Source: Planctomycetota bacterium
Lineage (GTDB): Bacteria; Planctomycetota; Planctomycetia; Gemmatales; Gemmataceae
Assembly (NCBI GenBank): GCA_016191165.1
Contig: JACPPF010000009.1
Coordinates: 1-48,890, forward strand
Direction of reading: 5' to 3'
Length of the DNA stretch: 48,890 bases
Shown here: one piece after another, positions 2,144 through 7,408 of the stretch
How positions within the stretch are numbered: the stretch's first letter is position 1
How the letters are laid out: each line of letters begins with the position of its first letter
Notes under the pieces: model-generated
What the model was told of the DNA's origin: nothing
Seen by the model: only the letters and a program-made list of their open reading frames with translations
Databases searched by the model: none
Program-made: the position numbers and the translations under genes

Positions 2144-2234
2144 ATCGAGGCCCTTTTCCCAACCGTCATCCAAACATAAAACGGGACTCCACGGACGCTT
2201 CTTCGAAGCGTCGCCACCCACGAGGATGTTCCCG

Positions 2235-5200
2235 ATGCGAAACCTCTGCCGCTCGTTCGTGTTTTGTATCACTTTCATCTCCATGGCCGCGCTGGCCCGC
2301 GCCGAGATCATCATCGCCGAGGGTGAGTCGTTCACGCCGCTCGACAAGAAGGGCTGGAAGATCACGCACCAGCAAGACAGCTACGGCAGCCACACCTATG
2401 GCGGCATGTGGATGAGCCAGGGCGGCTGTCTCGGCGCGCCGGCCGACAGCGCCGGGGCGATCGCCAAACGGACCATCGTCATCAAAGACGGCGGCGCCTT
2501 TCGCGTTTGGAGCAAGTATCAGGCGCCGCCCTACTTCAACTACCTGCACAAGGTCGAGATCGTGCAGAATGGCAAGACCGTATTCTCCCACGTCTATGGC
2601 AAGAAGGGGACCGATCGTCTCTGGAGTTTCAGCGGCGTCTCCGATGAACTCTGGTGGCCCTGGGGTGTCGATCACGATTGCGCCGAGGCCCCGAAAGCCA
2701 CGGTCACGCTGAAACCCGGCGCTGCGGAGATTCGGCTCATCACCGTCGCGCAACCAAAGCCGGCGGGCGACCGCTTCGTCGATTTCCTGGTGCTGACAAC
2801 GAATCTCAAGGATGAGTACAAGGGCTTCAAACCCTATTCGGTCGGCAGCCCCTTCGCGTTTGAAGCGCTGGACGCCACCAAACTCTTCCTTCGCTTCAAA
2901 AACACCAGCGGCAAGTTCGCATTCTTGAGCGTCAGTCGGGCGGGACATTTTCAACCGAACTATGGCGGCGGATCCATCACCGTTCCCAATCCAGGCAGCC
3001 CAAAAGCACCGTTGACGCCGGGCGTCGCGCCGGGACAGTGGAGCGAGTGGTTCAACATCGGCCCGTTCTGCCGGCTGGTCCATGACGAGGGCTTGACCGT
3101 GACGCTGCCCGGGGCCGCGACGTTTGACCTGCAATTCGCGCGCGATCCCCTTGGCAAGACATTGGTCGGCGACATGAAAGCCGTCTCGGGCGAACCGGTG
3201 GTCGTCCCCATCGATATCACCTGGCAAAAGAACGCCCGCGTCCGCCCCAGCCGCGATTGGGCCGCCGAGATCATCAAAGACAGCAAAACCTGGCGCAAGG
3301 CTAACGGCGGCAAGAAGCCGAAGGAGATCGCCTACTACGGCGCCTTCTCCGGCAACGAGGACTGGGTCCACGAATTGAAGGCGACCCTCGGCTACAATAC
3401 GATGCTCCCCGCCAAGTATGAACAGCTCAAGCGAGGTCATCTTCACGCTCACACGCACAGCATTCCTGACATCGAAGCCTTCGCCAAGCGATTCACCGCC
3501 AAGGACTCGCTGCGCGTCCTCTCCTTCGGCGACGAGATCAGCCTCGGCAACATCAACTTCAAGGACGCCAACCTCAACAAAATGTTTCGCGTCTGGCTGA
3601 AAACAAAGGGCATCACCAAGAACGACCTCGGCGTCGAGCCCGGTAACGCCGTCCTCACCGCATATAGCCCCGGCTTTAGCCGGGGCAGTTCGGAGCGCCG
3701 CCTCGCATGGTGGAGTCAGCAGTTCAACGAGGAAGAACGCTTCGCCGCCTATCGCGCCATGACGGCGCGGGCCAAGGAGCTATTCGGCAAGGACGTGCTA
3801 ACCGGCGCCAACTACTCGCCGCACCATGGCTGCCTGTACTATGGCCCGATCTACCAGTGGGTGGACATCTTCAAGCACAAGGGCATGTCGATGATCTGGG
3901 CGGAGGATTACATTTTCAGCGTGCCCGAGGTGCCGCAGATCATTTCGTGGAGCTTCGCTCAGATGCGCTGCGCCGCCAAGTATCACAACACGCCGATCCA
4001 TTATTACGTGATGCCGCACGCGCCGGGCCAGGAGCCAGGATTCCTGCGGCGAAACATGGTGCTCTCCATCGGTTTCGGCGCGAGGCACATCGACAACTTC
4101 TGGGTCGCCCCGGCCGAGCGCTACACCGAGAACTACGTGTCGTGGAAATACAAGGACACGTTCCGTGTGTTGAGCGAGTCAATCTACGATTCCGCCGAGG
4201 TCGAGAAATTCGTCGTCGAGGGCAAGGTGCGCCCCGCCCAGGCCGCCATCATCATGAGCAAGGCGACCGATTACAACGAGAGCCGACTGATGGTCCCGAA
4301 GGCCAAGGATCCGTTCGCCGCTCAATGCAAGAACGCGCCGGCGATGGTCAACCAGACGCTGTGCCGGAAGGAACAGCAGATGCTGTATTTGGCGTTGCGT
4401 CACGCCCAGCACGCGGTCGATTGCATCACGGAGGAGGACATTCTCGAAGGCTACCTGAAGAACCTCAAGGTCGTCTACTTCGCCGGCGAATGGATCGACA
4501 ACCGCATCATCCCGAAGCTGGAGGAATGGGTCAAAGCCGGCGGCGTTCTCTACTGCTGCGGTGGTTGTGGCCACAAAAACCAGTACGACGAACCCGAACC
4601 CGCGATGCTGAAACTGCTGGGCCTGAAGAGCATCAAGACCACAAAGAACGCGTATCACATGCGCACGCTGCTGGAGTTGCCGCTGGCGGAGCCGATGGAC
4701 ACCTTCGGCGATGTCAAGCTGCCGGCGGTCGGCATGAAACAGGTGCTGGCTCCGGGTGAGGCCAAGGTCTATGCGAAATGGAGTGATGGGAGTGCGGCCG
4801 TGACGACCCACGCGATCGGCAAAGGGCACGTTGTTGCCGCGGGAGCGCTCACCGGAACGTCCACCGTCAAGACGGCCGTCCGCCCGATTCCCTGGGCCCG
4901 CGGCGGTCGCTACATGCCCTACAATCCCGTCAGCGCTGACTTGGATTCACCGCAAATGGTGACCTTGGGAACGGCGTTCTCCAATCCCCCCAAAGACGTG
5001 GTCGCATCGAATCCGCACGTCGAGGGCATTGTAATCGATCACAAAGGCGGAACGCTACTCACACTCGTCAACTGGACGAACGCCAAGGTGCTCAACATGA
5101 TCGAGATCGAAGTCCGCATGAAGGACTCCCCGAAGACCGTCCGTACCGTCAGCGGCCAGCGCAATCTGGCGTTCACGCACAAGGACGGCATCGTGCGTTT

Positions 5201-5246
5201 CAACATCGACCTGGCCGAAGCGGATTATGTGGTGCTGCGGAAGTAG
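2235..5246 (+). CDS. Large secreted glycosidase-like protein
   Basis: This is a 1,003-residue exported protein. The start at 2235 has GAGG nine bases upstream and gives a clean signal peptide ending ALARA; an ATG at 2226 is in frame. After an N-terminal beta-rich part (about 25-210, with 'WSKYQAPPYFNYLHKVEI'), residues about 330-650 look like a TIM-barrel. Acidic candidates there are in SFGDEISLG (about 435) and IWAEDYIF (about 556). Residues about 690-890 resemble the glutamine-amidotransferase-like domain found after the barrel in GH42-type enzymes (EWVKAGGVLYCCGGCG, then GKGHVVAAGA). This architecture suggests action on a polysaccharide, but family and substrate are inferred. The stop codon TAG is the first part of a REP element (5243-5266), and a palindrome is read in frame at 3667-3686. 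Confidence 0.6.
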   Translation: MRNLCRSFVFCITFISMAALARAEIIIAEGESFTPLDKKGWKITHQQDSYGSHTYGGMWMSQGGCLGAPADSAGAIAKRTIVIKDGGAFRVWSKYQAPPYFNYLHKVEIVQNGKTVFSHVYGKKGTDRLWSFSGVSDELWWPWGVDHDCAEAPKATVTLKPGAAEIRLITVAQPKPAGDRFVDFLVLTTNLKDEYKGFKPYSVGSPFAFEALDATKLFLRFKNTSGKFAFLSVSRAGHFQPNYGGGSITVPNPGSPKAPLTPGVAPGQWSEWFNIGPFCRLVHDEGLTVTLPGAATFDLQFARDPLGKTLVGDMKAVSGEPVVVPIDITWQKNARVRPSRDWAAEIIKDSKTWRKANGGKKPKEIAYYGAFSGNEDWVHELKATLGYNTMLPAKYEQLKRGHLHAHTHSIPDIEAFAKRFTAKDSLRVLSFGDEISLGNINFKDANLNKMFRVWLKTKGITKNDLGVEPGNAVLTAYSPGFSRGSSERRLAWWSQQFNEEERFAAYRAMTARAKELFGKDVLTGANYSPHHGCLYYGPIYQWVDIFKHKGMSMIWAEDYIFSVPEVPQIISWSFAQMRCAAKYHNTPIHYYVMPHAPGQEPGFLRRNMVLSIGFGARHIDNFWVAPAERYTENYVSWKYKDTFRVLSESIYDSAEVEKFVVEGKVRPAQAAIIMSKATDYNESRLMVPKAKDPFAAQCKNAPAMVNQTLCRKEQQMLYLALRHAQHAVDCITEEDILEGYLKNLKVVYFAGEWIDNRIIPKLEEWVKAGGVLYCCGGCGHKNQYDEPEPAMLKLLGLKSIKTTKNAYHMRTLLELPLAEPMDTFGDVKLPAVGMKQVLAPGEAKVYAKWSDGSAAVTTHAIGKGHVVAAGALTGTSTVKTAVRPIPWARGGRYMPYNPVSADLDSPQMVTLGTAFSNPPKDVVASNPHVEGIVIDHKGGTLLTLVNWTNAKVLNMIEIEVRMKDSPKTVRTVSGQRNLAFTHKDGIVRFNIDLAEADYVVLRK
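3667..3686. repeat. Palindrome inside a coding region
   Basis: Arms GCCCCGGC (3667-3674) and GCCGGGGC (3679-3686) around TTTA are read in frame within the secreted glycosidase-like gene, giving the residues YSPGFSRGSSE. The sequence matches the layout of the intergenic palindromes in this window and looks like an insertion into the gene without loss of frame. Confidence 0.7.
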
Positions 5247-5304
5247 GTCAGGCTTTCCAGCCTGACACGCTCGGCCAAACGTCAGGCTGGAAAGCCTGAC
5301 CTAC
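5243..5304. repeat. REP + inverted REP pair (BIME)
   Basis: A REP unit at 5243-5266 starts with the tetranucleotide GTAG and then forms a hairpin with arms GTCAGGCT and AGCCTGAC around TTCC. Its mirror image is at 5281-5304 and ends CTAC. The TAG in the first GTAG (5244-5246) is the stop codon of the upstream gene. The GTAG foot plus hairpin is the known layout of bacterial REP elements mobilised by RAYT transposases. Confidence 0.85.
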
Positions 5305-5307
5305 GGA

Positions 5308-5448
5308 CGCTCCGAAGACCGTCCGTACCGTCAGCGGCCAGCGCAATCTGGCGTTCACGCACAAGGACGGCATCGTGCGTTTCAACATCGACCTGGCCGA
5401 AGCGGACTATGTGGTGCTGCGGAAGTAGGTCAGGCTTTCTAGCCTGAC
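5308..5448 (+). pseudogene. Duplicate of the upstream gene's 3' end, with REP
   Basis: Positions about 5309-5428 repeat 5127-5246, the last ~37 codons of the secreted glycosidase-like gene and its TAG, almost base for base (for example GCGGACTAT against GCGGATTAT). The copy then continues into another REP (5425-5448, with one loop change, TTCT). There is no start and no full domain, so it is a partial duplication carrying its REP with it. Confidence 0.85.
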
Positions 5449-5483
5449 GGGAGCGCCCTAGGCAGGTCGTTCAGTCCAAAAAC

Positions 5484-5699
5484 GTCAGGCTGGAAAGCCT
5501 GACCTACGCCGACGTCAGGCTGGAAAGCCTGACCTACGCCGACGTCAGGCTGGAAAGCCTGACCTACGCCGACGTCAGGCTGGAAAGCCTGACCTACGCC
5601 GTGACCTACGCCGACGTCAGGCTGGAAAGCCTGACCTACGCCGACGTCAGGCTGGAAAGCCTGACCTACGCCGACGTCAGGCTGGAAAGCCTGACCTAC
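5484..5699. repeat. Tandem array of seven inverted REPs
   Basis: Seven copies of the inverted REP (GTCAGGCT-GGAA-AGCCTGAC-CTAC) start at 5484, 5514, 5544, 5574, 5616, 5646 and 5676. The period is 30 bp because each 24-bp element is followed by GCCGAC. One 12-bp slip (GTGACCTACGCC) lies between copies 4 and 5. The last copy ends 5 bp before the ATG of the RAYT gene. There are no unique spacers, so this is not a CRISPR array. Confidence 0.92.
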
Positions 5700-5704
5700 C
5701 AGCC

Positions 5705-6373
5705 ATGAAGCGACATTACCAACGACATCTGCCGCATCAAGTTCCGGAAGGGTTTCCGATCTTTTTGACGTGGAACCTCAAGGGGGCATTTCCACCGGAG
5801 GCGATCGCCAGGATTCGCGAGGAAAGGGAACGTCTCGAACGCGAACCAATTTGCTTGGATGAAACTTCCGCTGCGAGACGTATTCGTCACGACAAGCTTG
5901 CATTTGCCTATTCGGATCGCATCCTGGATGCCGGCGCGGAAGGTCCTCTCGATCTCAAGGACGCGTCAAATGCAAAGATCGTTGAAGGCTCAATCCTTTT
6001 TGGCGTGCCGGAACGGTACGAGCTTTTCGCATGGTGTGTAATGGCCAATCACGTCCACGTATTGCTGCACCCGATCTGGGAATTGCCGCGAATCACCAAG
6101 GGCATCAAGGGGTTCACCGCCCGTGAAATCAACAAAAAACAGCAGGAAGTCGGCCGCGTTTTCTGGCAAGACGAGTCGTACGACCACTGGGCGCGCGACC
6201 ACGAAGAGGTAATGCGAATCATCGCGTACACCGAGGACAACCCAGTGACGGCCGGGTTGTGCGTTAGGCCGGAAGATTGGCCGTGGTCCTCGGCGCGATT
6301 TCGCGCCGTGTGGGAAGTAGGTCAGGCTTTCCAGCCTGACATGCAGCCAAAAACGTCAGGCTGGAAAGCCTGA
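5705..6373 (+). CDS. REP-associated tyrosine transposase (RAYT)
   Basis: This 222-residue protein is a Y1/HUH single-strand transposase of the IS200-related RAYT group. The metal-binding HUH motif is visible as ANHVHVLLHP (about residues 113-122). It is followed by the family blocks KGFTAREINKK, FWQDESYDHWARD and IAYTEDNPVTAGLCVRPEDWPWSSA. The catalytic tyrosine is probably in or near the ESYDHW block, which I infer from position. RAYTs recognise REP hairpins with a GTAG foot, and such elements lie on both sides of this gene. The array ends 5 bp before the ATG, leaving no usual ribosome-binding site. The final ~19 residues (VGQAFQPD ... SGWKA) are the translation of a REP pair, so the original C-terminus was probably replaced. 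Confidence 0.9.
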   Translation: MKRHYQRHLPHQVPEGFPIFLTWNLKGAFPPEAIARIREERERLEREPICLDETSAARRIRHDKLAFAYSDRILDAGAEGPLDLKDASNAKIVEGSILFGVPERYELFAWCVMANHVHVLLHPIWELPRITKGIKGFTAREINKKQQEVGRVFWQDESYDHWARDHEEVMRIIAYTEDNPVTAGLCVRPEDWPWSSARFRAVWEVGQAFQPDMQPKTSGWKA

Positions 6374-6378
6374 CCTAC
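6317..6378. repeat. REP/inverted-REP pair overlapping the RAYT 3' end
   Basis: A REP at 6317-6340 (GTAG foot) and its exact mirror image at 6355-6378 are separated by 14 bases. The coding frame of the RAYT runs through both and stops inside the second at 6371-6373. Confidence 0.88.
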
Positions 6379-6382
6379 AAAC

Positions 6383-6493
6383 GCCCTGAAGACCCTCAGC
6401 GGCCAGCGCAACCTGGCGTTCACGCATAAGGACGGCGTCGTTACGTTTCGGCTTGACCCGGCGGAAGCCGTTTATGTGCTGCTGATGCGGTGA
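6383..6493 (+). pseudogene. Diverged remnant of a glycosidase-like 3' end
   Basis: Reading from 6383 gives ALKTLSGQRNLAFTHKDG followed by VVTFRLDP and ending YVLLMR with a TGA at 6491-6493. This aligns with the C-terminus of the gene at 2235-5246 (KTVRTVSGQRNLAFTHKDG, ... YVVLRK) but is clearly diverged. It is therefore an older, third copy of the same gene end, now only about 36 codons long. It suggests that a related gene once stood here and was mostly lost. Confidence 0.75.
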
Positions 6494-6507
6494 GCGGACG
6501 GCTGGCG

Positions 6508-7317
6508 TCAGTCCAAAATCTGTAGGCTCTGCACCCGATAGCGGGCCTGACCGGTGCGGTCGGGCGGCGGCATCATCGTCCCGGTGACAAGCACACGCTG
6601 ACCTTCGCGCAGGTTGCTCAATTCGGCGCCCCCTTCGAGAACGACCACGCCGCCGTGGCGATCTTCTTTCCCCGCGTCCGCGTAACGCAGGCGCCAACTC
6701 TTGCGATAGCGATGCACCTGGCCCGTCAGGCCCTGGCCGTCGGTTTGCCGCCCGTTGGCGATTTCGATAGGCACGGTCTTGATGAGCGCCATCTTCGTCG
6801 GCGCCTTCGGGCTTACGACTTCGAGGTCACGCACGGCACTGGGGCGATCGTCGCCCGGATGGACCTCGTGTTTGGCAAATGGCCGTTGGCTAACCGAGGT
6901 CGGTGGGCTCGCCTCCCGAGGCAAGATTTCGATTTGTCCCGGCACGCCCAACCGCTTCGGGTCGGTGGCGGTGGCGTGGTCCGATGGTTTCGCACCCTGC
7001 TCAGACCGCGACAAGGGAGGGGGCGGCGTGTCCAGCGGCGCGATCGGCGTTGACGATGCATTCAGCAGATCGGGCGTGCCCGAGCGCTCTCCCGCAACGA
7101 CGATGGTCTCCATCGGCCGGCGCGCGCCGGTCTGCTTGGTCCCGGGAAGGAATCGCGGGGGTGCGTCCAGCGATTCCAACTTCTTCCTGCGACCATTCTC
7201 TTGCGGGTTTGAAGACGGTGCACAGCCTTCCCGGCAACTGGCGCCGAACAACGTACAGCCGGCGAAACATGGTAGGCACAAAAGCCCGAGACCCAGGATG
7301 AGGATTTTCTTGCCCAT
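6508..7317 (-). CDS. Lipoprotein of unknown function with OB-like C-terminus
   Basis: The start at 7317 (MGKKILILGLGLL) follows a GAGGCGG ribosome-binding site and gives a signal with lipobox CFAGC, so this is a predicted lipoprotein of 269 residues. An upstream in-frame ATG at 7353 adds 12 residues and is less likely. The middle third is proline- and charge-rich and probably disordered. The last ~75 residues (GQVHRYRKSWRLRY, then GGVVVLEG, LREGQRVLVTGTM and ARYRVQSLQILD) have the strand pattern of an OB-fold domain. The real function is unknown. It is transcribed away from the Hsp70 gene, with a 301-bp region full of palindromes in front of it. Confidence 0.65.
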   Translation of the reverse strand: MGKKILILGLGLLCLPCFAGCTLFGASCREGCAPSSNPQENGRRKKLESLDAPPRFLPGTKQTGARRPMETIVVAGERSGTPDLLNASSTPIAPLDTPPPPLSRSEQGAKPSDHATATDPKRLGVPGQIEILPREASPPTSVSQRPFAKHEVHPGDDRPSAVRDLEVVSPKAPTKMALIKTVPIEIANGRQTDGQGLTGQVHRYRKSWRLRYADAGKEDRHGGVVVLEGGAELSNLREGQRVLVTGTMMPPPDRTGQARYRVQSLQILD

Positions 7318-7408
7318 GAGCCGCCTCGCCACAAACCGAATGAAGGGAATCAAATCTCTACATCGGCATGGCGATGGCAGGACATGAGGGTTTTTCCGAT
7401 TGTAATGG

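Follow-up and report, generated by a model that had tools for sequence, protein, structure and literature searches.

The window, a stretch of 48,890 nucleotides, is contig C14 of a 7.2-Mb genome in 183 contigs, and it carries a glycosidase-like gene whose 3′ end is present three times around a gene for a REP-associated tyrosine transposase (RAYT). The elements follow one another in the order gene with its working end (T1), REPIN A, T2, REPIN C, an array of further REPs, RAYT, REPIN B and T3 (Table 1). Similarity of the gene to Pfam Glyco_hydro_42M is weak (21.8 bits, under the cut-off of 25.8); its matched relatives include Gemmataceae and Planctomycetota, and orthologues within the genus share 72-84% of their amino acids. 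Our genus comparison set comprised seven genomes (G000-G006), six of which hold a close copy of the gene, split over two contig pieces in both G003 and G004. The gene body is missing from the G001 assembly, where only the last bases of the gene are present, at a contig edge. The 3′ piece of the split G003 gene (L070, G003:C276) contains one in-frame TAA.

Table 1. Features of the gene end and REPtron, in window coordinates
Feature	Position	Strand	Description and basis
Glycosidase-like gene	2226..5246	+	1006 aa; ORF, weak Pfam match; end includes TAG from the following REP
T1	5123..5246	+	Working gene end; repeat search, tblastn, fitted borders
REPIN A	5243..5304	+	Two inverted GTAG REPs, 14-nt spacer, TTTCCAG loop; between T1 and T2
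T2	5305..5427	+	Near-identical gene end at the probable old gene-REPtron junction; repeat search, REP context
REPIN C	5425..5507	+	TTTCTAG loop, 35-nt spacer, as 3′ of the gene in G004 and G001
REP array	5508..5699	+	Additional REPs at intervals of mostly 30 nt, once 42
RAYT	5705..6373	+	ORF, 222 aa; Pfam Y1_Tnp, HUH-type motif, catalytic Y
REPIN B	6317..6378	+	Behind RAYT, overlapping the end of its ORF; 14-nt spacer, TTTCCAG loop
T3	6379..6493	+	Detached gene end, probably old, closed by its own TGA at 6493; repeat search, tblastn
Flank 3′ of T3	6494..6511	+	15 of 18 bases identical to the flank 3′ of the G002 detached tail

The RAYT matches Pfam Y1_Tnp with 34.4 bits, above the cut-off of 23, and the solved TnpArep structure 4er8 with an E-value of 9.5e-5. 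Its score against NCBIfam NF047646 (65.6 bits, E 4.3e-18) lies under the cut-off of 80, as do those of its orthologues in G004 and G001. With HVH at residue 116 and Y at 175, the protein is predicted to be an IS200-like Y1 transposase with an HUH motif and a catalytic tyrosine. Its last 18 residues (VGQAFQPD...GWKA) are read from REPIN B (6317-6370), so that an inserted REP appears to have taken the place of the protein's native end. At an E-value of 1e-30 the RAYT was found in 4 of 95 family genomes, namely G000, G004 and G001, each with a single copy at this gene end, and G023; the viral collection contained no relative.

The repeats are GTAG REPs: a GTAG-tagged palindrome with GTAGGTCAGGCTTTCCAGCCTGAC arms occurs in many copies and in inverse pairs of ~62 b (REPINs). 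A 211-b query matches 134 places in the genome, many of which are the two strands of one REPIN. REPs flank the RAYT gene on both sides in the window, in G004 and in G001, and we refer to a RAYT gene with its flanking REPs as a REPtron. Across this genome's REPINs (L003-L123) the 24-b arms are near-invariant and the 14-15-nt spacers highly variable, as though only the arms were copied or homogenised. Several contigs begin or end inside REPIN clusters (L102, L112, L116, L120, L122, L123), and REP arrays seem to break the assembly of this genome.

Three copies of one gene end

A preliminary description of this DNA had reported the gene end in three copies, the diverged one on the far side of the RAYT. 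Repeat search and tblastn confirm the three copies, with fitted borders within 4 bases of those first proposed, and the RAYT ORF does stand between T2 and T3. The repeat search returned a single family of three 144-b copies, at 5123-5266, 5305-5448 (97%) and 6370-6513 (63%, ungapped). When the last 50 residues of the gene product were compared with the window by tblastn, identities of 97.5% over 40 aa (5306-5425) and 65.7% over 35 aa (6386-6490) were obtained. Over 120 bases T1 and T2 show three differences, and T3 is 84% alike in DNA over ~93 bases. A local DNA alignment between T1 and the T3 region scored 109, as against 26 for the best of 472 background tiles from both strands of the rest of the window. 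With REP sequence excluded, the 7.2-Mb genome contains no tail copies beyond these three places, and it holds no close paralogue of the gene, the sole other match being partial, at 29%, on contig C30.

Both T1 and T2 end in a TAG stop that belongs to the GTAG of the REP next to them. The frame of T3 is open, and it stops at the same codon position as the gene end. T3 is not closer to an unrelated protein: it matches the gene ends of G002, G003, G004, G005 and G006 at 63-77% aa and the detached copy in G001 at 80% over 30 aa. Derivation from the ~30% paralogues was considered and rejected, as these gave only short matches (E 0.44 or worse), far worse than those to the gene ends. We also considered T3 as an extension of the RAYT; it is in frame in the window (6386 lies 227 codons from 5705, behind the RAYT stop) but not in G001.

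Related genomes and the age of T3

Upstream, the order TPR gene, GNAT gene, small gene, glycosidase-like gene is common to the window, G006 and G004, whereas the downstream neighbours of the gene or its RAYT differ among the window, G001, G002, G004 and G006 (window 6494-7353; L071, L072, L067, L068). The REPtron thus sits at what gene order identifies as a synteny breakpoint. Downstream synteny gave no answer as a guide to the gene end's original neighbour, since the downstream genes differ among the genomes compared.

The gene end in G004 is followed by a REPIN with a 33-nt spacer, a RAYT (81% aa) and a REPIN, with no detached tail. In G001 the last bases of the gene are followed by REPs, a RAYT (75-77% aa), a REPIN and a detached tail of 27 residues, so that this genome and the window agree in carrying a detached tail behind the RAYT, the two RAYTs being 76.8% alike. 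G002 has ~590 b without REP or RAYT after the gene, and then a detached tail of 37 residues at 73%. This copy begins ~20 b further upstream in the gene, with nothing recognisable upstream of about codon 961, and the two G002 tails are more alike to each other than to any other tail (92%). The gap between them (L067 2405-2985) contains two small reverse ORFs, one of which is sporadic (4/95 family genomes). No convincing detached tail was found in G003, G005 or G006, where a single weak match of 20 residues (G006, E 0.49) was seen. The 15 of 18 flank bases shared by T3 and the G002 detached tail are suggestive only, as a likeness of this score is reached by 21 of 2320 background tiles if position is left free.

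We compared the tails over 93 columns (31 codons). T3 differs from T1 with a pS of 0.40 and a pN of 0.18, and the window T1 differs from the gene ends of G004 and G003 with pS values of 0.41 and 0.43 and pN values of 0.14 and 0.16, respectively. As the silent divergence of T1 and T3 is about that seen between species, the two appear to have separated about as long ago as the species did; a tail in the same place in G001 would likewise put T3 before that split. T3 is thus most likely older than the split between the window and G001 species. For the G002 tail pair pS was 0.23, and for G002 versus G003 it was 0.22. The 93-nt tail tree rejects none of three arrangements: the distal tails as one clade (p-AU 0.21), the window tails grouped together (0.25) or the G002 tails as a pair (0.30). 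Pairwise pN/pS ranged from 0.12 to 0.45 for pairs that include a detached tail, and we considered coding constraint on T3 on this basis. The private changes, counted over 31 codons only, allow neutrality (7 silent against 7 non-silent in T3, P 0.10; 9 against 12 in the T1 control, P 0.16), and we make no such claim.

Origin of T2 and T3

The 97% likeness of T1 and T2 supports the recent REP-linked duplication that had been proposed for this locus. In that proposal the near copy had carried its REP; the junctions point to the reverse. The REP after T2 resembles the gene-end REP of G004 and G001 in loop (TTTCTAG) and spacer, the latter being 35 nt and starting GGGAGCGCC in REPIN C, and 33 nt in G004 and 35 nt in G001, both starting GGAAGCGCC. 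T2 therefore appears to stand at the ancestral gene-REPtron junction shared with these genomes, and the REPIN after T1 would be the addition. REPIN A resembles REPIN B in loop and spacer length, unlike the 33-35 nt of the old junction, and by these junctions we take the added piece to be the 62-b REPIN A, which separates T1 from T2.

T2 and T3 both start at nnACGC, two bases past the end of a REP. Such a start is found at only 2 of 141 REP outward ends in 38 stretches, which argues against a target rule of REPs. The shared start base suggests that the far flank of the RAYT and the gene end took part in an unequal exchange or a template switch, and in the simplest reading the left border of T2 was copied from that of T3. 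REPIN A with its junction is 86% alike to REPIN B with its junction over 85 b, whereas T1 and T2 differ by ~3%; if everything was copied at once, either T1 and T2 were homogenised later or the 14-nt spacers changed fast. Spacers across this genome's REPINs are very variable and arms are not, so that REPIN B is no more than a candidate source of REPIN A.

We favor, with a probability of about one half, a history in which the end of one gene, at a REPtron, was partially duplicated in several layers. First, in an ancestral genome, a direct duplication of the gene's last ~40 codons would have left behind T3, a spare end that is not translated. REPs and RAYT would later have come between the working end and the spare; the arrangement is that seen today, its order in time is our reconstruction, and a REP now supplies the TAG stop of the gene. 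In the window lineage, an exchange between REPIN B/T3 and the gene-end REP and tail would then have added a REPIN and a second tail. The junctions of this step are present in the sequence. The exchange may have been a single template switch, or T1 and T3 may have crossed over unequally, after which a REP-REP deletion removed one of two RAYT copies. An exchange of this kind would give T2 the junction start of T3 but the sequence of T1, and homology for it is available in the 24-b REP arms (100% alike) and the ~93-b tail (84%). The tail copy of G002, with its start further upstream, may be an independent event. Against this history count the RAYT of G004, which lacks a T3, and the tail tree, which does not resolve a single origin of T3. 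The proposed layers require no function for T2 or T3.

T3 had originally been read as the trace of an older related gene that was lost, to be sought in relatives as a second full-length paralogue. The much older copy of the same gene end is there; the lost gene is not apparent, as none of the seven genus genomes has two close full-length copies. If a complete tandem paralogue had once stood here and been deleted except for T3, its end, this would fit a T1/T3 divergence as large as that between gene ends of different species, the open frame of T3 with its stop at the same codon, and the existence of tandem homologues, side by side at 50% and 25% identity, in a distant Planctomycetota genome (L061 1163-7674). 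However, no gene sequence survives upstream of T3, the tail alone remains in the window and in G001, the G002 copy is likewise unrecognisable before about codon 961, and the even split of private changes in T3 fits neutral drift. A partial duplication suffices to explain T3, and a lost paralogue is possible but unlikely. By these comparisons the three copies look more like a record of ordinary recombination between repeats over time than like the remains of a lost gene.

It is also conceivable that a REP/RAYT unit arrived together with a gene end and joined the gene at its tail, either in the manner of integrative elements that restore the 3′ end of a gene or as a circle joining by one crossover, so that T3 is the displaced original end. 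The likeness of the T3 flank to that of the G002 detached tail, the TGA stop of T3 as against the REP-made TAG of T1, and the fact that T3 is no nearer to T1 than to the ends of other species would agree with this. But RAYT and upstream gene diverge alike between the window and G004 (81% and 84% aa), giving no sign of a recent arrival of the RAYT; only the RAYT looks like a recombinase among the ORFs of 5247-6378, by eye; and inspection of 49 other family RAYT stretches, again by eye, revealed no clear non-palindromic pair of upstream gene ends. We regard such an arrival as improbable. Still less probable is the broader proposition that RAYTs of this lineage carry a copy of the host gene's 3′ end with them, or use one to insert, leaving the gene intact and its old end displaced beyond the RAYT. 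If true, this would be a transposase-linked way of keeping a target gene whole, and in the open-access literature searched we found no description of such insertion for RAYTs. Separate origins of the detached tails in the window/G001 lineage and in G002, in a gap that tolerates insertions and rearrangements, would account for the closeness of the two G002 tails, the differing downstream genes and the sporadic gene in the G002 gap. The flank bases that T3 and the G002 tail share directly after the stop speak against separate origins, which we consider as doubtful as the arrival of a unit. Finally, the T1/T2 pair could in part be a product of misassembly in a metagenome-derived contig rich in closely spaced short repeats, given that several contigs of this genome end inside REP clusters; with T1 and T2 three bases apart and in different REP contexts, and with contig C14 running through, this is very improbable.

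Relation to other REP and RAYT loci

In enteric bacteria, tandem chromosomal duplications occur with REP sequences at the join point, and some integrative elements, e14 in icd among them, rebuild the 3′ end of the gene into which they insert. In the former, as in the history we favor, REP homology drives duplication; the enteric duplications involve large chromosomal segments, whereas the unit here is ~180 bases. With elements of the e14 type the locus has in common that an old gene end lies displaced beyond inserted DNA. It differs from them in that neither a site-specific recombinase nor a recurrence of gene-end copies at the 49 other RAYTs was seen, by eye.

Closer parallels come from REPs themselves. 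In ordered REPIN clusters, of which 16 are described in P. fluorescens SBW25, REPINs are repeated in tandem along with sequence that flanks them (Bertels and Rainey 2011, PMC3116915). T1/T2 may be a case of this kind, its flank being 97% alike and its REP arms alike. Unlike in the SBW25 clusters as described there, the flank here is a coding gene end, the spacers are of 14 versus 35 nt, and an older copy lies beyond the RAYT. In REPtrons with GTAG REPs, palindromes flank the RAYT gene and the TAG of a REP can serve as the stop codon of a neighboring gene; Planctomycetes are among the named hosts (Di Nocera et al. 2013, PMC3733652). The locus shares the GTAG tag, the palindromes on both sides of the RAYT and the REP-made stop with these REPtrons, but adds gene-end copies, a subject on which the text of that paper as available is silent ("duplicat" has 0 occurrences in it). 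In the open-access literature searched, we found no account of a RAYT with gene-end copies to either side. The kind of event is already known: T1/T2 probably belongs with ordered REPIN clusters, and T3 adds an older layer. What the locus offers is a roughly datable, stepwise case in which REPs and a RAYT turn a neighboring gene end into a small repeat family and a breakpoint, with junctions that indicate the old copy, the new copy and the added REPIN. It cautions, too, against taking every detached gene end for the trace of a lost gene.

Duplication of flanking sequence touching a REP was seen at 1 of 37 other REPIN stretches of the genome (L101, 36 b), these 37 being the ones above the BLAST threshold; a second match, in L008, belongs to another repeat. 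The 49 other family RAYT stretches (30 among the matches listed and 19 from a second search, L152 and L165 being the same place) include 26 with direct repeats 350-2000 b apart. Most are of REP type, the sorting of REP-type from gene-end repeats being by eye and the spacing filter not strictly demanding pairs that flank the RAYT. The nearest gene-end-like case, L146 (G063), looks like a three-copy REP-type repeat. In the stretches examined, gene-end copying was not found to be a general habit of REPINs or RAYTs. At L139, in the two-contig genome G081, a RAYT lies between 137-b direct repeats (1265-1401 and 2080-2216) of 99% identity and is perhaps a young insertion.
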